DNA from: Fomitopsis serialis
Taxonomy: Eukaryota > Basidiomycota > Agaricomycetes > Polyporales > Fomitopsidaceae
Direction of reading: 5' to 3'
DNA: 64,000 nucleotides
NCBI RefSeq assembly: GCF_022376445.1
Contig: NW_025954978.1
Location: 124,001 to 188,000, forward strand
The number at the start of each line of letters is the position of its first letter. Positions within the stretch are counted from its first letter, which is position 1. Shown piece after piece: positions 7,245 to 25,269 of the stretch. The notes below the pieces were generated by a model. It made no database searches and was not told the DNA's origin. It saw nothing but the letters and a program-made list of their open reading frames with translations. Position numbers and translations under genes: made by a program.

Positions 7245-7354
7245 GACACTATGGCCGAGTGGTTAAGGCGACAGATTCGAATTAGTTGGAAGTGCAGGAT
7301 TCGAACAGTATCTGTTTCCCGTTGGGAGCGCAGGTTCAAATCCTGCTGGTGTCG
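7245..7354 (+). tRNA. tRNA-Ser(CGA) with intron
   Basis: Acceptor arms GACACTA and TGGTGTC pair over seven positions, with discriminator G at 7354. The A box (TGGCCGAGTGG) and the B box (GGTTCAAATCC) are both present. The anticodon stem ACAGA/TCTGT encloses loop TTCGAA..., giving anticodon CGA at 7278-7280. A 28-nt intron (7282-7309) follows the base after the anticodon, the canonical position. A long variable arm follows, as expected for tRNA-Ser; the layout closely resembles the yeast intron-containing tRNA-Ser(CGA). Confidence 0.93.
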
Positions 7355-10890: not shown

Positions 10891-12598
10891 TGATGTGCGT
10901 ATTTATTGACATGCTTGCCACGACCTCTCGTTATCCATGTATAATCTATACCGGCACAGTAATATATTGCAGCGGTTCTTCAAGTCGGTCTTTGCTGTCA
11001 GGCTGACTCGGATGCCGGCGGGCACGGTCCGAGGAGCACGGCTTCGTTTCCAAGTCTCTTCCATCCGACAGTTGGTCATGGAGGTGAGCACCCGCATCCG
11101 TTCGCAGTTGCCCAACATACGGGTTGCGAATGATACTCGTTTCGGAAAGGGCTCCTACGATGGACACATTTGGCGGCGACTCGGAGAGTAGGCACGGCCT
11201 CGGAGGCGTGAGTGTACATGGCGGGTGGGATGAGCAGACAGAAGGCTGTTTGATGCGCGGGAGTCACATCGCACAGGTTGCATGTAGGAGGTATGTACTC
11301 AGTTCAGTTCCGTCCGGCGGCTACAGCCCGCTGGAAGAAACTATCAAGAAATTCGCATTTTCGATATGGCTCTATCATCATGGTCACATACTAAGGATGT
11401 GAGCCCAGGTGGGTAAACGCGAGTCCAAGGACCTCTGACGAGTGAGAAAGAGAGAGCGAAGGGCAGTACCCTGTCTGCTGCTCTGAAGACCCTCGCAGCT
11501 CATCAGGCGAGTGCACGCCGTGACTAGTACGACGCAACCCTCGCGCGAGCAGGTTTCACTACGAAGCCACGGCGGGGCGGCGTAGGTTTCGCTACGACGC
11601 CGTGGTTAGACGCCGCAGGTTTTGCAGCACTGCGGTGCAGGATAGACGGCTGGGACATTGGTTGTGAGCGCTCCGTGCGCATGCTGATGAGCCGTCGATT
11701 GAACTGACCACAATTTCTGTAATTGAGAATAGAGTCTGAGGGCTTCGTAGGTGCGGTGTCATTTGGGTGTCATATCCTATTTTTCACCCGGATCGGGGCA
11801 GCCGTGATGTCCAGAAACTTGAAGTTCACTCCTGCGATACCTGAGTAAAACACGCAGACGAGCGAGCCCTCCGAGTCGACGGACCGCCTCCACCACAAAT
11901 CAGAGTCTGCGCCGCGCACGTCTCTTCAACAACAGACTATACAGCAGCAAAACGGACCTTGAACCCGGGTCTATATGGAGGCCTACCCCGCGCAAGACAT
12001 GCCACGGTTGAAACTGCCAGGCGCATTTTTTCATGCGGTCACGGTGCCGACGCACGAAGACAGTCGAACCGTAACCGTGGCATTCCCGGTGACCAGCAAC
12101 TTGAATGTATGATCACCATAATCAATACTTTGCTAGCAGACCTTGCGCAATAAATAAAGCCAACACAGACCTACACTGCGGAAACGTGGTAACTGTGTTC
12201 TTGCCCTGGGTTCAGGGTGTCGGAGCGGTGGTGGGGTGCGTCCACACGGATGGGTACGAGACCAGTGGCACAGTCACGGTCACGGTGTCATACAAGCTTG
12301 CGCCACAGACGCGTCTGCACAAGATCGCGTTTCCGATCGCTTGATGCAGGTGACGGACGCGTCGCGGGTAAGGCGCCGCTTGTGACGCGTCGCTATGCGT
12401 CATGAGAATGCAGGTGTTCCCATTCGCTGGGGTCATGCTCGTCTGCCTCCGCGCCCAGGCACGCTCGCGAACGGCCGCTCAATGTCACCTGGACCTCAGG
12501 CTGGACCCTGGCAGATGTGAGATGGGCTCGTCGACGCGGGGAACGACGAGCACGGCAGGCAGGGTAGGCAGGAGGAGGCGATATGTACAGTCTATGCA
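10891..12598. other. Intergenic; imperfect 21-nt direct repeat at 11551-11604
   Basis: No gene is supported in 1.7 kb. At 11551-11571 and 11584-11604 two imperfect copies of a 21-nt sequence beginning AGGTTTC follow each other within a GC-rich, partly palindromic tract. Its role is unknown. Confidence 0.45.
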
Positions 12599-13835: not shown

Positions 13836-13920
13836 TCCTTCGAGCCGGGATCGAACCAGCGACCTCAAGATGATATGTATCCATTACAGTCTCGCGCTCT
13901 TCCAACTGAGCTATCGAAGG
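13836..13920 (-). tRNA. tRNA-Tyr(GTA) with intron
   Basis: On the minus strand the acceptor stem CCTTCGA/TCGAAGG pairs perfectly with discriminator A. The D arm is GCTCAGTTGGAAGAGC and the T arm contains GGTTCGATCCC. The anticodon stem CGAGA/TCTTG encloses anticodon GTA (13885-13887), followed by a short intron of about a dozen bases one base 3' of the anticodon, as in nearly all eukaryotic tRNA-Tyr genes. Confidence 0.94.
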
Positions 13921-14871
13921 TTACTTTTTACATTCCATATACTATACATAGCCGCTTGACTTGCGGCACGTAGTGTCACTTGTTTGAATCTCTCCATTAC
14001 CTCTGGCATGTGCGATGATGCATTGATGAGCGGGCTCGCAAAATGAGCAAGTTGAAGTTGGCCCGAATCACGTCAATGTCACAGCCAGAGAGTTGGCACC
14101 ATATAGGCTCCGTCGAGTTCGGACACCTTCCCGGTGCCTTCCGATGTTCGCGATATATAACGCTCAATTGCGAAAGCATCTGCTACCCAAGTATATACTC
14201 CGAAAACAGATGCTCAACTGAACTGTCCAAAAACAGACGATATAAAAGGCTCATACTACTTAGGATACGGGCGAACGGCGACACTGGAGGGATATCAGAG
14301 ACAGGAGGAAAAAACCAGACAGCGAATAGCGAGGGTGAGATGAGTGTCAACAGCGTCGATCATCAACATATCGTGGGCGGTCGACGCCACGGAGGGTCGC
14401 ACAGGGGCGAGGCGGGGGTAAGGCAATGCGCATGGCGCGAGGAGGCGCGACGCTAATATACAACCAGACAGGTGACGCGAAGCGGCAGAAAAAAAGAAGC
14501 CAAGGACCGGTACGCAGAGTGAGAGATGATGTGATGGAGTGTATGTGCACTATCGACGAGCGTCCCTTCTAGCAAAGCCAAAGCGGTACGGTGGACGGAG
14601 AGCAATGCAATGCATGTGTCGTGAACGGCGATTGTCCAGTGGGCGCAGGAGATGCGGTTGGTTTTGGTGCAGTGCTGAGCGCGAATGAAGCGTCATAAAG
14701 GGGCGTGAGGGTTAGGCCAAGGCGGATATATAGGATAGGATAAGAGTCGATCGTGAACATGGTCATGAGGGTTGCCACATGCAAAGCCTGGCACACGCCC
14801 CATATTAGCACCCGCCAACAGACTCCGCATTCGGGAAGACGCACAATTCAACCGACAAAAAACTCGCAGAC
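13921..14871. other. Intergenic, no gene seen
   Basis: Upstream flank of tRNA-Tyr and 3' flank of casein kinase 1. No supported features. Confidence 0.5.
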
Positions 14872-17433
14872 TCATCCGCGACAGCAGAACGCAGCCCAGA
14901 AGCCTCTCTGCCGTCCACCATGCTCGTCCTGCTCTCCCACCCTCGCCATCTGCTCCCGGTCATACATACCCATCCCGCGGGTGCCCACAGCACTCATGGG
15001 CTCGCGGTTCGGCGCGGTACCCGCCGTCGTCGTTCCCTCGCGCGAATTTGTCCCGTTCTTCGCTTGCTGCTGGCCATACACGAACGATTCTGAATTAGTC
15101 GCCTGCCCGTTGGGTGCGGGCGGCGCCCCGTTCGGCGACGAGCGGTCGTACGCCGTCGCACGGTACCCGCCCGGGCTCGGCGTCGCCGCATAGGGGTGCG
15201 ATGCCAGCGCTTGGCTCTCCCGTTCCGCACGCACTACCTGCTGCTGACTCTGCCGCCGGCTCGCCGGCGGCAGGGGCTGCACGCTCGCGTGCTCGCGCGA
15301 GTTGCCGCGCGAGGCGTCCACGGCCGCGCGACGACTACTACTCTTGACATGCGCTGGGGTTGGTGCGAGCACCATTTGGGAGGAGGGCGACTGCGCGGCT
15401 TCTTGGAGGGGTTGACGCGAACTGCGCCGGTGGCCGTCATGACCGCGCGAGCGGTGCTCGCGGTGCGGGGTATGCGGTGCAGCGGCGTTTGCGTGGGCCT
15501 GTGCAAGCAGGGTCGAGGGGGTCTATGGGGCACGTATCAGCAAGTTACCGCTTTCTGCAGCGAGGTCGAGGCGCACATGTCCAGCTTCCCAGCCTTTGCC
15601 GTTGTTCAGGAGCATCCAGTCGAAAACGCCATCCTCTGGCTCGCCGAGCGTCTTCAGCACCTTCGAGAACAGCTCGCGGAGGAAGTCATAGTCTGGCGTC
15701 TCCTCGAAGCCGAGCTTCCGAACATAGTTCATGTAGATCGCGAACTCCTCTGCACCGCACATGAGCCACGCCGCTTCCACCAGCACAGACAAGCACACCC
15801 ACCTGGGAAGCCCTCGCACAGTTCCGGAATAGATGTGCTCTGTTTCTTCTCACCAATCTTCTCGTACTTCTGCTTGTTGGTGGCAGCGCGCAGACCCTGC
15901 CACGGCAGCCCACCGCGAAGGAAGTACATGAATACGTGACCAAGCGACTCCAGGTCGTCTCGGCGTGACTGCTCACGACCGAGATGCGTGTTGATTGACA
16001 TGTACCGGGCCGTCCCTGAAAGCGACTTGCGCTCGCGATAAGGAATGTGCTGTTTCGTCTTCGGGTCACGGTAGTGTTTCGCCATGCCGAAGTCTGGGTA
16101 GAAGTCAGCGTGGATGTCATGGAAACCTACGCACTACCAGAATGCAGTGGAGCCAGAATGAAGCCGGCTGGAGTAGGCATGGATGGCGGAAGATGCAAGC
16201 TCCGGACCACTGCATATCACCCTGCGCCTTCGAACGACCCTTCGCGGGACCGTGGGGTTCCAAATGTGTGACAGGGTACATACCGATGATGTGAATGGTG
16301 TTCGCGGTCTTCGACCCGGGAACACCAATTAGGAAATTGTCGGGTTTGATGTCGCGGTAAATGAGTGATTTCTCGTGAATCGCCTGGACACGAGTGACCT
16401 ATGAAACCGGTGAGAAATCGGAGCGGTACAGCAGCTGCAGGTAGTTTATGTGTTCAATGGAATATAACGTATTCAAAGCTACCGTGATAACAAGTTCAAT
16501 CCACATGTGGCATGAGGAATGGAGGTGTTAATGCCACCGCGCGGGTCCCGCCAGGAGTACGGCATTTGTGAAGAGTCGGGTCTTCGCAAGTGTCGGCCGT
16601 GGCCACAGCAGCACGACTTGTGCCACCATTTCTTGCTAGGAAATGGCCGGACCAGTTGAAACAACTAGCAAAATATAGCGTCTATGTCCATATCGTATAC
16701 AGAACGCCCCGAAGTGCCTGGCATCGGGAACATTCTGCATGGGATACGTACGAGAGTGGCCATTGATGCGAGCTGCCTGACTACGCCACACTGCACGAGC
16801 CCGAGAGCATGTAGGGGTACCACTCGGCACGCAGCGACGTGGGACGCATAACTCGGTATTATTAACTCACCATCTGTTTGGCCGCCATGCATACAGTCTT
16901 GATGGTGAACTTGCGTCCACACATGTCAAAGAGGTCCTCCAAGTTAGGACCAAGCAAGTCGATGACAAGAACATTATGCAGGCCCTCCTGGCCGAAGTAG
17001 TGTACTTGAGGGACTCCAGCTGGAAGTCGACAACAAATCGGTCAGGTCTCGCGCGCGCACCGAGAGAATGGTGGACATACGTGTTCCGTTCAGTGTCCGA
17101 TATGACCTGTACTCGTCCCTGAGTTGTGGTGCCTCCGACTTCCGAGGTTCCTAGGGTGACTGTGAGCACAGCGGAGCTAGAAGAATCAAGTTCACTCACA
17201 AACTTGATAGCAACGGGCTGGTTGTTTAGCAAGTTCGCGCCTGTGCAGGTCCCACTGAGCTTTCTTCCAGTTTCAAATGCACACCGAGATACTCATACCC
17301 TCGAAGACGACACCGAAGGAGCCCTCGCCTATCTTCTTGCCAACCCGGAAATGCGCACCCACGATGCCGTTCGACGTCGCAGACTGAGAGGTGTGGTGGG
17401 CGGACGAAGAGGCTATAACGTGGGGGTGGCCAT
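14872..17433 (-). CDS. Casein kinase 1, Yck-type with C-terminal Cys-Cys
   Basis: The kinase begins at [20 protein letters not shown] (glycine loop) and continues through [39 protein letters not shown], the catalytic [12 protein letters not shown], the DFG in [17 protein letters not shown], and the CK1 hallmarks [16 protein letters not shown] and [20 protein letters not shown]. It ends with [13 protein letters not shown] long Gln/Ser/Pro tail finishes [10 protein letters not shown]; terminal paired cysteines are the palmitoylation signal of the plasma-membrane Yck1/2 group. At least seven exons; the intron at 16399-16870 is 472 nt, far longer than the others. The frame upstream of the glycine loop has no ATG. 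The ATG at 17433 is one base out of frame; one extra C after ATGGCC would give [14 protein letters not shown] and is the likely real start. Confidence 0.93.
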
Positions 17434-19499
17434 GGTACGGAGGAAGAGAGGGAAAGGAGGAGGAAATAGAGGAGGAACCGTTGACAGGGACGCTGAGCCG
17501 CTCGGGGCGGGGCGAGGGAGAAATGATGGCGGAGTCTAAAGGCACGCCCGTCCATATATGGTCCCCTAAGAGACGCCACGCGCGCGCCGGCGCCCCCGCC
17601 TCGCGCTTCTCAACCACCGCATCCGCTGCGGCCACAGTCTATCATTTCATCGACGTTCGCGTGGCTTATGCATTAAGAATTGTCGATTTGCTTGACGGTG
17701 CTCGCGAGTCGTTGAAGGAGGTGGCACAAATCTACTGACTAGGCCGCTCGTGCTCAATACACAGTCAGGTCTGCTAGGTATATTCAAGTTCGGAAAATGG
17801 TTGTAGCGCGGTACTCGTATACCTGCCAACATGTAAGTAGTACATGGGCTTCTGTAGCCGAGCGATGCTTAGATCCCTTATTCAATCTGTGGGTGTAATC
17901 GTAGTCCCAGTGTTGCTTTATCGTAATGACATCCCGCTTGACAGCTTCAGCTGCAGGTTGTGTGGCATGCTATTAGCCGGCGATCATGATCGCAAATGCA
18001 CGCCTTCCTGTGGACATGACTGCGACCCTCAGCGATGGACTGTAGTTTGTCGACCGCCTGACGGGTGAAGCGATGCATACATCTCTACCATCTCAGTCAG
18101 AAGACCGAGAAGCTTTTGCAGCGTTTCTGGCACTGTTTCTGGCACTCTAGGTGAGCTCTCAGTCGGTTGTATACGCGGAAGTCGCACGTGCGCGATCTCA
18201 CATTCTGTCCATAGTGTCTGTGCATGGCTCGGACACATCCTCCTGGATTGCGCGCTCTTCAACGTAACGATATCTGCGACTACGCCTTCGCATAGTAAGG
18301 CCCCATGTAATTATGCCAGGGCGAGCGTAGCTGCCAATGCCGTGATGCTGAGCAATGCCAACCCGGTCCGGGCTACGACTTCGACTCGGCCATCCCGCCT
18401 CCCCAAGCTATGCATGTCCTCGAACATTTGTTCAAATCCATCTCGTGCTATATCTTGTATGTGAGCGCACTGCCTCCGTCCTTGTAACCCCTAGACTCGT
18501 ATCTTGTATGACCATATGTGACATAGAGCAGTCAGGTGCCTCTGACGGTTCAGCTTTTGAGTTGTGTCTGTTGTCACTAACATGTCAATACACATCGTCT
18601 GTCCGACTCTGGCACCTGCTTATGGTCCTGCTACGGTCCCAGCTGACGAGTGTATCTCACCGTTCCCACAGCTCCCGGGCATCGCGTCCGCGTCAGCTGT
18701 GTTGCTTGCAGACGCTCGAGACGAGACGAGTACGAACACTGAACTGATACAACTCGAAGTCATCCAGTGGTATACATAGTGACTGACTCCTGCGTAAGGC
18801 GCCTTGGACTTTGCTAGACGGAGTAAGCCCTACTACGTACTGCATGTCGTCGAGGAAGTTAGCAGGACTGACGAGAGTCACGAAACAGGCTGCGAACACC
18901 GAAAACAAAAGAGTAACCTCCACTGACTACATGCATATGGCTGTGACACGAACTCGCTGACCGCGACGCGTCTTTCCGCCAGGCTCAATCAGGGGGGCAC
19001 AATTTTCATCTTTCACACCCTTTGCCGTACGGCGTGAGATATTGAGCAAAGGGCAACTTTGTTAGCGTCAACAAAGCAATGTGAACAAGGTCGCGAAGAC
19101 AACATTAGAGGCTGTTCGAGATTCGTATGTGGTCCAGGAATGCAAGACCACACATTCTGAAGCGTTCAGTGACTCCATAGCAAGTATGCGTTCACGTTAA
19201 CCATACTTGCCTACGAAAGACGTGCACAGGAAGCGTGAACGTTTGACTGGAACACAACGTTGGTGGATTATCCATGCCATCCTCTCCACTCACGAAGATA
19301 CTGTACGAATGATCACGCTAGCATGGCGACGTGCACTGGCAAGCCATTATTAGTTCACGATGCGGGGGCTTCGTCAATAGCTACAGCCGGAGAGGACAGG
19401 AAAGTCATTTTCATTCGAAGATCTATAACGTACTATGTACACAAGAGATGCGGCCCATTGTTCCGTTACCACAAGCATCCAACCACCGATTCGCGCAGC
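17434..19499. other. Large intergenic region, no gene supported
   Basis: About 2 kb without a convincing gene. A minus frame starting at 18923 opens with a signal-peptide-like stretch but has no family features. Around 18225-18260 the plus strand reads LGHILLDCALFN, faintly like the C-terminal zinc motif of some retroelement proteins, without support around it. A short inverted repeat (GCAAGTATG / CATACTTGC) lies near 19180-19215. Confidence 0.45.
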
Positions 19500-19581
19500 G
19501 TGTAATCACAAAGCGAAACCTGCGGGGAGGCGACGGTAAGCCTCTCGAATGTGATGAGTAACCGAGTCATGTAGCAGAAAA

Positions 19582-19661
19582 TCAGTTTATTGGTGATTAT
19601 AATCAAGGCACAAGGCTAAGCAACAGCTTCTAGTTGATATTGGTTTGAATTGACTCATCAC
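19582..19661 (-). ncRNA. Candidate C/D snoRNA, target unknown
   Basis: In intron 5, a perfect C box GTGATGA (19655-19661) and D box CTGA (19582-19585), 80 nt span, D 62 nt from the 3' splice site. The region after the C box shares ATTCAAAC with the snR55-type RNA. The written sequence after the D box (TTTATTGGTGATTATAATC) has no target I recognise. Confidence 0.62.
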
Positions 19662-19811
19662 GAGAGTGTAGACATAGAAGACTTGAGATGAAGATCACAT
19701 ACCAGCTATTAGCGACCTGTATCATTTCATCCGCCTCGGTGCGTCAGAGAAGCCTGCCAGAAGCAGTCGTCAGTCTCAATCCAAAGCAGGTGGACAGATG
19801 AAGAGATAGAA

Positions 19812-19896
19812 TCAGAAGGGGTTGCCCGAAGTTATTGAGCTGTGGCGGGCACTTTCGGCAGTGATAGTACGAAGACCGTCGTGATAAAACATCATT
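19812..19896 (-). ncRNA. Candidate C/D snoRNA, target unknown
   Basis: In intron 4, C-like box ATGATGT (19890-19896) and D box CTGA (19812-19815) are 85 nt apart, the same spacing as the others, and D lies 58 nt from the 3' splice site. The guide region corresponds to the written sequence from 19816 (AAGGGGTTGCCCGAAG). I cannot place it on rRNA from memory. Confidence 0.55.
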
Positions 19897-20038
19897 CAGA
19901 GACGTCAGACAAGATGCTCACCTCTTGAATCAACTGCATCGAGCGCACTCCGCATCATAGCCGGACTATCAGGACACACACCTTAGGCTTGTCCTGGAGA
20001 ATGAGGTCAACATCGGTAATGCGGGAGATCAAGATAGC

Positions 20039-20126
20039 TCAGAGTTTTAAAAAAACAGCCATGGATTTGTCGTCATAATCGAGGTTCAAGACCAAGATCA
20101 GGCGGTAATTCCTTATGTTTCATCGT
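20039..20126 (-). ncRNA. snR77: C/D snoRNA, snR77-type (18S target)
   Basis: C-like box ACGATGA (20120-20126), internal CTGA at 20098-20101 and terminal CTGA at 20039-20042, span 88 nt, in intron 3. Next to the internal box the written strand 20102-20112 reads GCGGTAATTCC, identical to the 18S 530-loop region. The N+5 rule selects the U of GCGGU, equal to yeast 18S Um578 (snR77; human SNORD65). So the working guide would be the D' guide. The C box carries one deviation from RTGATGA. Confidence 0.8.
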
Positions 20127-20265
20127 AGCGAGAATGATGGAGACGCAATGCTCACCTTGCCGTCGACACAAGCGATAGTTGGGATTCAAGGAGGCGCATG
20201 TTGGACCTATGTAGGAGACGATGAGACAAAGTCCATACCCGAGATGGTGCAAGAGGAATAGAGTA

Positions 20266-20347
20266 TCAGTGGATTGACAGATAATCGTAAAGCATCGAGC
20301 CTAATAGGCTCTCAGATACTCTAGTTTGAATGATATAGGCTCATCAC
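20266..20347 (-). ncRNA. snR55: C/D snoRNA, snR55-type (18S target)
   Basis: A perfect C box GTGATGA (20341-20347) and D box CTGA (20266-20269), 82 nt span, in intron 2. The written strand at 20271-20282 reads GGATTGACAGAT, identical to the conserved 18S segment. The fifth base upstream of D pairs with the first U of GGAUUG, matching yeast 18S Um1269 (snR55; human counterpart SNORD33). A D'-like CTGA lies at 20312-20315, with an internal guide of unknown target. Confidence 0.87.
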
Positions 20348-20514
20348 GTAGAGTATGTGAAGCGATGGATGTCTGCATAAGAGCTAAGACTCACCTCAAG
20401 ATTAGATGCTCGCCCGCCAATATCTTTTGAAGAGTAAACACCGGCACAAACGTTCCTGAGTAAAGAGTTAGACGAGGTGCATGTGTACGAGCGATGCGAA
20501 GAGCGGAAAACCGA

Positions 20515-20606
20515 TCAGTGTAACTATGACATAAATTCTCGTGGTCATCGCGTCAACGACCTGGTAAAGGTCGAGGACACTGGAGGTAAACAAACGTTAT
20601 CATCAA
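20515..20606 (-). ncRNA. snR63: C/D snoRNA, snR63-type (25S H69 target)
   Basis: C-like box TTGATGA (20600-20606) and D box CTGA (20515-20518), 92 nt apart, inside intron 1 of the host gene. The written strand at 20520-20530 reads GTAACTATGAC, identical to helix 69 of large-subunit rRNA, so the RNA is complementary over 11 nt. The base paired with the fifth nucleotide upstream of box D is the second A of GUAAC, equivalent to yeast 25S Am2256, the site guided by snR63. The rRNA sequence is from general knowledge; modification itself is inferred. Confidence 0.8.
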
Positions 20607-20905
20607 GTCGAAGAACAGCCCAGATTCGATGACGAACGACTCGAGCACAGCGCGAAGACTCACCATCATGCACAGAGAACACATTAGGGACGGACAGCCG
20701 GCGAAACAACTGGCGAAGCACGAAAACAACTGCGCGAGAGAAGAAATTTGGCATGTACGGGCACTTCAGGGCAGGTCGCGCCGGTTCAGACCGCCTGTGC
20801 GCCATGCACGTGATGTAACGCGTTCTGACCGTCCGACTGAGACAACTCCGAAGGACCGAGTATAACTTCCAGTTGGACATCGGCGCACGCATTTCTCTGA
20901 CAATA

Positions 20906-22793: not shown

Positions 22794-25269
22794 ATGTTGA
22801 ACCAACGGTACTTCCGCTTCACACTCTCACTGTTCCTCACACTCTGCCTCTGTATGGCCCATGGCGAGTACTTCGACTTCCTCGAGCCCCTCGCACACTT
22901 GGTCACGCCCGAGGCTCGGTTCATGTCCAACGGCATCCTGCTCTGGATATTCGTTCACTTCGGCTTGGTGGTGGTCTTCTTCGGTCTCATCAACGTCTAC
23001 GTGGGCTACCTCCGGCTTTGTTATCGGTTCTCTTGGTTCGTGAGAGGTCGTGTCGAGGTATGTCACCGCGCCTATGTGCATTGAGTTTCTCGTAACCTCA
23101 CCCTTCTAGGAATGGGTCGCCGGCACTCACCCTCAACGCCAGCGCCAGGTCGACCTTCCTAGGCCTGCTTCTGTCAGGGTAGCCACTGGCACTGTCGCGC
23201 AACTGGTCGCCAACTCCGCTTCTGTCTCTCCTGTCGACGACTCCCCTCCTGTTTCTCTTGATTCTGGTGCTCGTGACGCCTTCGAGGAACGGAACGACTT
23301 GCCGGTGGACGCAGGTCTGTGTCCCGCCACCGAGTCGACTTCGACAGACGCATGGTCCGACGGATCCGCCCAAGCATCGTCCTCGCCCACTGTGTCTCCT
23401 GAGACTGTCAGCCTGGTTCTTAAATCTGACCGCGCAACGCCACCTCCGGCGTCCTGTCCTGTCAGCCCTGCACCTGCTCTCCCCATCGATACCGTGCCCA
23501 AGTCCGAAGCCGACAAACTGCAAAAGGAGATCGTCATGCTGAAGACGCAGCTGTACAAGCAGAGCAGAGACATGTCCCGGCTGGAATTGGAAAAGGAGAA
23601 GCTCAGGAAGTCGCACACCGAAGTCCAGCTTCAGTCTTATAGGCTACAGACTCAACTCGAACATGCGAAGCGCGACACGGCGCGCCTCCAAGACGACCTC
23701 TCTCGTGTTCATACGGAAACCGCCGAGAAGACCGACAGTCTGAACAGCAAGGTCATGGCTTCGGAGGAGCGTATCAAGGATCTCGGGTGCGAACTCGACA
23801 CTGCTAAGGCTACGACGAAGGCTCTTGAGGGTCTCGTTGAGGCTCGCGACGGCGCACTGGCCGACTCTGCCGAGGAGAACCAGAAGGACAAGGACACGAT
23901 TGGCCGGCTTCTTCGAAACGTCGAGGAGAACCGGAAGCTCGCCCTGCGTCTCAGGCTCGAACTGGATGCTCAGATCATGAAGAACACCCCGCAGCAGCCT
24001 CGTACATACCCGGTAGTCAAGAGGCAATTCGCGCACAAGGCCCCCTCTTCCAACAACTCTGACTTCCGGTGGACCCCGCACATGTACGTCCAGGAACTGA
24101 ACCGGCAGAAGTCTATTGCACGGCACCACATCGAAGAGGTGCACCAGGAGGCAGACGCGACGATCAACGAGCTCAAGGCCGCTCTGGCGACTATGGCTGG
24201 ACAGCGCAACAAGCTCGAGGCCGAAGTCGACTCCGTGACCACAAAGCGCAAGAACCTTCAGGCCAAGGTCGACTCTCTGACGGCTCGCAATGGTGCTCTC
24301 GAACAGGACGTGCGCGACATCACCGCGGCAAGGACCACCGCCGAAGAAGAAGTCAAGCGTCTCTCGGCAGCTCTGCTCGATCAGCCCGCCTGCATCTGCG
24401 GTGCTGCCGTTGGGCGGAGGACGAAGGGCAGGCTTGCGAAGGCCGTCGATCTCTATGCGAAGCACGCACGCGCCCTCCGCTGCATCCAGCGCAAGCACTC
24501 GGACGCGACTATTGCTGAGCTCACTTCAACTCAGAGCACCCTCGCTACTGCGGAGACCCACCTCAAGGCCGTGCGTGAGGACCTCGGCGTCCTGCAACGG
24601 GCGATCGACAACGCGTATGCTCCTCTGGGTCCTACTATGATGGCGCACCTCGCCGCTAGGGGCCTTCATCTTCAGAGGGCCCTGAGGCACGATGAACAGG
24701 TAGCTTTGATCTCGGACTTCGCAATGCTCTTGGCGAACGAGGGTTCTGGTGCTGTTTCTGGTTCTGTTTCGGTCGATATGATGGTCTGCGACGAAGACTC
24801 TGGTCAGCCTGAAGCGATCGATGCGATGGAGTCGGTGCATGTGGAAATGGCGTCTCTCTGCTCTGCGCCTGATCCGGATGCCACTCTGGTCGACACGGAC
24901 ATGGACATGGCGACCCCGGACAAGGAGGTCGTCCCAGTCGGCGCCAGCGTCCCCCTCCACTGGACACACCGGCAGCCTCCGGCCACTCCCAGCACCACTA
25001 TCCCCTACGTCCCCCAGGCCACAGCCACCTCAATGACCGACGTACAGATGGCGCCTCCCTCTGTACCTCAGCACAAGAGCACGCCAGCTCCGGGCGCGCC
25101 CAGGAAGCCCGTTGCGGCGGCGCGGGCTAAGGCACCCAGCACGCTCGCCTCTCCAACGCCGAAGGGACGCCCGGGCGCCCTGCAGATTATCTCTGAGTCT
25201 GAGTCACTGAAGCTGTTTAGTGAGCTGGGAGAGGAGGAGCAAGAGGTGTGTGTGCTGTCTGCGCGATAG
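22794..25269 (+). CDS. Membrane-anchored coiled-coil protein, unrecognised
   Basis: Two exons (22794-23057 and 23110-25269) give 807 residues. The N-terminus has a first hydrophobic segment (FTLSLFLTLCLCMAHG, possibly a signal) and a second (GILLWIFVHFGLVVVFFGLI, then NVYVGYL). After a Ser/Pro-rich linker comes a long coiled coil from about residue 235, starting KLQKEIVMLKTQLYKQ, interrupted near residue 340 by QQPRTYPVVKRQ, and resuming to about residue 520. A short CICGAAVGRR motif and KHARALRCIQRKHSD follow, then a disordered Pro/Ala/Thr-rich tail. The frame is clean for 2.1 kb. I do not recognise a family. Topology suggests an endomembrane tether or scaffold, but that is only inference. 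Confidence 0.8.

Follow-up and report, generated by a model that had tools for sequence, protein, structure and literature searches.

It is highly probable, in our judgement, that the minus strand of the 64 000-nt stretch of Fomitopsis serialis DNA analysed here (the window) carries a mainly non-coding RNA polymerase II host gene with five spliced introns, each bearing one box C/D snoRNA, that these snoRNAs guide modification at six rRNA sites, and that the locus descends from snoRNA cluster I of fungi. The gene would be transcribed with little or no protein output and its five introns spliced; each debranched intron would be trimmed by exonucleases to a single C/D snoRNA shielded by the core snoRNP proteins Nop1, Nop56, Nop58 and Snu13; and the snoRNAs would guide 2'-O-methylation of 25S rRNA at Am2256, Um2421, Cm2959 and A1867 and of 18S rRNA at Um578 and U1231 (yeast numbering throughout).

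Five GT...AG introns can be read on the minus strand between 20663 and 19520: intron 1 (20456–20663, 208 nt; GTGAGT...CTAAC...CAG), intron 2 (20207–20394, 188 nt; GTGAGT...TAG), intron 3 (19994–20155, 162 nt; GTGAGC...TTGAC...CAG), intron 4 (19754–19921, 168 nt; GTGAGC...CTGAC...CAG) and intron 5 (19520–19702, 183 nt; GTATGT...CAG). The model built on them has four internal host exons of 61 nt (exon 2, 20395–20455), 51 nt (exon 3, 20156–20206), 72 nt (exon 4, 19922–19993) and 51 nt (exon 5, 19703–19753), flanked by the 3' part of exon 1 (20664–20760, upstream limit arbitrary) and the 5' part of exon 6 (19300–19519, downstream limit arbitrary). An initial annotation of this DNA had described five introns of 162–208 nt and exons of 51–72 nt, and these sizes are borne out. 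A YTRAY branch site lies 12–16 nt from the 3' end of introns 1, 3 and 4; when the motif was looked for within introns 2 and 5, the D box itself was the sole match. Donors resembling those of the host, for example GTGAGT and GTATGT, also occur in the neighbouring kinase gene. A CACGTG motif lies at 20807–20812, some 145 nt before the first splice site, and may belong to the host promoter.

Each of the five introns contains one C/D pair, with C to D spans of 91, 81, 87, 83 and 79 nt and distances from the D box to the 3' splice site of 59, 59, 45, 58 and 62 nt (introns 1–5 respectively). Box C/D snoRNAs have a C box (RUGAUGA) and a D box (CUGA) near their ends and are about 70–100 nt long; the units found here have this layout at 79–91 nt, with CTGA as the D box in all five. 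The C box is TGATGA in introns 1, 2 and 5 and imperfect in intron 3 (CGATGA) and intron 4 (TGATGT), so that the C/D pair previously claimed for every intron is present in all five, though not well formed in two of them. The D' boxes are degenerate in intron 4 (CGTA) and intron 5 (CTTA). All on the minus strand, the units comprise an snR63-like snoRNA in intron 1 (20515–20605), a double guide in intron 2 (20266–20346), an snR77-like unit in intron 3 (20039–20125), an snR73/SNORD35/U35-like unit in intron 4 (19812–19894) and a U95/snoR33/NcCD28-like unit in intron 5 (19582–19660).

Guide pairing was scored against working copies of S. cerevisiae 18S and 25S rRNA, with a working list of yeast methylation sites. 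The copies have the expected lengths (1800 for 18S, 3396 for 25S) and number A2256, U2421, C2959 and U578 as is usual for yeast; each of the 56 yeast sites on the list shows the expected letter. Searches for eukaryotic 25S and 18S in public contigs returned pieces or nothing, and parts of the working copies match the rDNA pieces retrieved. Contigs L003–L006, from bacterial metagenome-assembled genomes, end in eukaryotic 28S, presumably at the R2 insertion site, and seem to represent R2-type retrotransposon contamination; a contig from a viral collection whose end is eukaryotic 18S rRNA (L001:3790–4543) is apparently a chimeric assembly. Two published sequences are consistent with the working copies as well: a 28S target in PMC12180492, and a 28S primer in PMC8571607 over its first 22 letters.

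Every unit has a guide with at least 10 rRNA pairs beside its D or D' box and a target in the N+5 register, in intron 4 next to a degenerate D' box and in intron 5 with one mismatch. The intron 1 D guide (20520–20530) pairs with 25S around Am2256 through 11 Watson–Crick pairs. Intron 2 carries two guides of 12 pairs each, an snR78-like D' guide (20318–20329) directed at 25S Um2421 and a D guide (20271–20282), like those of snR82, CD44 and HBII-55, directed at 18S U1231. The D' guide of intron 3 (20102–20112) forms 11 Watson–Crick pairs around 18S Um578, that of intron 4 (19873–19884; D' box CGTA) 12 pairs around 25S Cm2959, and that of intron 5 (19622–19639; D' box CTTA) pairs at 17 of 18 positions around 25S A1867. 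The second guide region of introns 1, 3, 4 and 5 was assigned no target in S. cerevisiae rRNA. The initial annotation had claimed three perfect guides of 11–12 nt at three known yeast sites. The guides stand, with 11, 12 and 11 Watson–Crick pairs in introns 1, 2 and 3 in the N+5 register, as do two of the three sites, Am2256 and Um578; the third, Um1269, was rejected as the target of the intron 2 D guide, which by the checked numbering pairs around U1231, a site not listed for S. cerevisiae. The guides to Um2421 (intron 2 D'), Cm2959 (intron 4) and A1867 (intron 5) had been missed. When the score allowed G–U pairs and mismatches, intron 3 reached 12.4 at 25S U3148 against 12.2 at Um578; U3148, higher by 0.2 with G–U pairs, was set aside in favour of Um578 because the 11 pairs of the latter are all Watson–Crick and the site is known. 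A relaxed score permitting at most one box mismatch returned no Cm2959 match for intron 4, as the box there departs from the motif at more than one position.

We take yeast Um1269 and Um1888 to be the counterparts of N. crassa Um1265 and Um1866. U1231 then corresponds to N. crassa 18S-Um1227, with the same offset of 4 as between Um1265 and yeast Um1269, and A1867 to 26S-Am1845, with the same offset of 22 as between Um1866 and yeast Um1888 (PMC2780460, Table 1). That table gives 18S-Um1227 as the site of N. crassa CD44 and names snR82 of S. pombe along with snoR14 and HBII-55 as homologues, which covers S. pombe, plants and human but leaves S. cerevisiae without one; it assigns 26S-Am1845 to CD28, snoR33 and U95, with none in either yeast. 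For intron 5, the register first adopted, U1873 (11 pairs; box CTGT), was replaced by A1867, which has the longer pairing and which PMC2780460 lists for N. crassa as well as for plants and human; U1873 is a possible alternative register.

Degeneracy of the C box in introns 3 and 4, and of the D' box in introns 4 and 5, would suit a decayed cluster of pseudogenes, or units that are left unspliced and released from a polycistron by RNase III, the route taken in budding yeast. Against both stand the intact guides, which keep 11–12 exact pairs in introns 1–4 and 17 of 18 in intron 5, and the framing of every unit by splice signals at similar distances; we therefore consider decay or an unspliced polycistron very unlikely, and spliced introns with working guides the better account.

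Whether the boxes and the short stretches of complementarity could be coincidental was weighed against several controls. Across the whole window, on both strands, 570 exact CTGA boxes yielded eight guide-like matches with 10 pairs or more, and four of the eight fell in the 1.26-kb stretch of the locus, which holds 12 of the 570 boxes on its strand; three of these four coincide with yeast sites on the list. With reversed, complemented and sense rRNA as control targets, the window gave 7, 12 and 4 matches and the stretch none. As the window total of eight is no higher than the controls, the signal lies in the place and the sites of the matches, not in their number. With one box mismatch allowed and 58 listed sites as targets, 11 matches were obtained in the window, five of them in the stretch; without the two sites that entered the list only once the guides were known (18S 1231 and 25S 1867) the stretch held three of nine. 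Shifting the sites by nine offsets gave no match in the stretch eight times and one match once. In favour of chance, 388 random segments scored with relaxed boxes reached 11 in 20.9% of cases, 12 in 8.0% and 13 in 2.8%, and the top random score (16.2) exceeded that of intron 5 (15.2). Single guide matches are weak evidence taken alone. A short C/D-like unit was also seen on the plus strand at 11685–11739; its 55 nt run from an upstream C box, TGATGA, to CTGA, and it can form 10 pairs with 25S around U1039. It was judged to be probably at chance level.

At Rfam gathering scores the whole window returned two tRNAs and no snoRNA family, which fits in part the expectation that annotation pipelines would leave this interval empty. 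The tRNA genes lie at 7245–7354 on the plus strand and 13836–13920 on the minus strand; their anticodon arms have extra bases relative to the Rfam model, 31 where it has 3 and 13 where it has 1 respectively, which is compatible with introns. There was sub-threshold support: in 19.0–21.3 kb at E up to 5, all five matches were C/D snoRNA families, on the minus strand, in four of the five introns and below gathering. These were snR78 in intron 2 (24.3 bits; gathering 48), SNORD35 in intron 4 (21.9 bits; gathering 36; E 0.088 in this 2.3-kb search), snR63 (14.8 bits; gathering 50) and GlsR7 (16.6 bits) in intron 1, and SNORD49 in intron 3 (14.2 bits). The last was treated as a weak side match because the intron 3 D' guide fits snR77. 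SNORD35 alone of the five families appeared in a search of the whole window at E up to 10. Two control stretches of equal length gave one and two weak Rfam matches, one of them SCARNA17 (20.6 bits, E 0.69), a C/D-type scaRNA, and the 0.5 kb from 11.5 to 12.0 kb gave one C/D match, sR42, at 13 bits. Lone weak matches thus turn up elsewhere in the window, a point in favour of chance, and Rfam alone would not carry the case. Five consecutive introns with six guides and known sites, set against controls that yielded little or nothing in the stretch, together with snR78, SNORD35 and snR63 matches that sit in the corresponding introns, nevertheless make a chance origin extremely improbable.

Alternatively, the host could encode a protein or form a long 5' UTR, its introns bearing snoRNAs incidentally. 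A spliced RNA modelled from 20900 to 19300, both limits being arbitrary, contains ORFs of at least 20 amino acids with lengths of 24, 22, 34, 39 and 121; the longest is open through exons 1–4 and requires a transcription start upstream of 20893. The snoRNA-bearing introns of RPL7 and NOG2 are positionally kept in 82% and 72% of fungal species respectively, as reported in PMC8476143. On the other side, a search that scored 30 candidates gave the 121-amino-acid ORF no homologue at E 0.001, and the remaining ORFs encode just 22–39 amino acids. Six read-through frames of 13.0–28.0 kb likewise contained no Pfam family at E 0.001, weak evidence from an insensitive scan, since it also missed the intron-rich, multi-exon kinase gene next door. 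A coding host thus appears unlikely, and a host that is mainly non-coding is the most probable interpretation of the sequence.

That kinase gene, downstream on the minus strand at 14870–17640, encodes a casein kinase 1 in at least seven exon pieces, with a frame ending in FCCRG, perhaps of the membrane-anchored type. With the exon pieces joined by eye, the best match was 95% identical and came from Postia placenta (Agaricomycetes, Polyporales); all 7994 scored candidates were relatives, of which the best 120 were considered. Among the matches listed, the next named ones are presumably mostly from Agaricomycetes, then from other Basidiomycota and a few Glomeromycota. By this gene the window belongs to Basidiomycota, and probably to Agaricomycetes. 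Two of the six gaps between the kinase pieces are long (16384–16867, 484 nt, and 16095–16284, 190 nt, minus strand) and the other four measure 49–64 nt; the two long gaps contained no snoRNA family in Rfam at E up to 5 and no C/D unit by reading. A plus-strand ORF at 23299–25269 encodes 656 amino acids, appears coiled-coil-like by eye and has one relative, which is 31% identical.

A multi-exon, non-coding host with a single C/D snoRNA in each intron is also the arrangement of the vertebrate UHG/SNHG genes, GAS5 among them, although their snoRNA set differs; the sequence lends good support to the initial interpretation of the locus as a mainly non-coding host of UHG type whose introns carry one C/D snoRNA each. 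Fungal hosts have themselves been likened to vertebrate UHG genes, and UHG-like hosts with alternative splicing are described for N. crassa in the accessible part of PMC2780460; Candida species have non-coding, partly intronic snoRNA polycistrons (PMC5033589, accessible part). Since such arrangements are described across fungi, including Basidiomycota (PMC3596301; PMC2780460; both in their accessible portions), this one is less novel than first held. On the whole, the initial observation largely holds and is partly confirmed, and its interpretation is partly supported.

The closest likeness is to the intronic form of fungal cluster I. PMC3596301, in its accessible part, describes three fungal snoRNA clusters, of which cluster I (snR78-77-76-75-74-73-72) is intronic in Basidiomycota. 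Like it, the present locus has one C/D snoRNA per intron and a poorly coding host, and it holds three of the seven members, the snR78-, snR77- and snR73-like units, in cluster order (PMC3596301; PMC2780460; accessible portions). Units for snR76, snR75, snR74 and snR72 were not found in the stretch. An snR63-like unit precedes the snR78/77/73-like series and a U95-like unit follows it, and both are lacking from cluster I. The S. cerevisiae snR72-78 polycistron has snoRNA members in common with the locus; it is non-intronic and cut by Rnt1p according to the accessible part of PMC5033589, whereas the units here are intronic. In N. crassa, the counterparts of the snR63-, U95- and snR82-type guides, CD33, CD28 and CD44, are on chromosomes III, II and IV and cluster I members on VI (PMC2780460). 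The guide that partners snR78 is of snR82 type here, compared with snR72 in Euascomycetes (NcCD5). This combination of snoRNAs was not found in the openly licensed literature; it might be present in the figures of PMC3596301.

By its sequence, the locus appears to be of a known fungal kind, a UHG-like snoRNA host, with a partly new passenger list, and it is most likely a descendant of cluster I to which snR63-, snR82- and U95-type guides have been added. Descent is suggested by gene content and order (snR78, snR77, snR73), with three shared members only. On this account snR76, snR75, snR74 and snR72 would have been lost from this place, snR63-type and U95-type introns gained, and an snR82-type guide acquired by the snR78 snoRNA in its second half. 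Whether cluster I was rebuilt in just this way in the present agaricomycete lineage, with snR63- and U95-type introns in, four members out and an 18S U1231 guide gained by snR78, to give a double guide that differs from the snR78/snR72 one of Euascomycetes, we regard as an evenly balanced proposition. If true, methylation at 18S U1231 and 25S A1867, neither of which is listed for S. cerevisiae, would be coupled to the old cluster's expression.

All five likely C/D units score below the Rfam gathering cut-offs. The locus would give a mushroom-type fungus an intronic snoRNA host for which six predicted targets can be named, and it may serve as a test case for the movement of snoRNA introns between hosts and the recombination of guides into double guides, both of which have been proposed for fungi (PMC3596301; PMC2780460; accessible portions).
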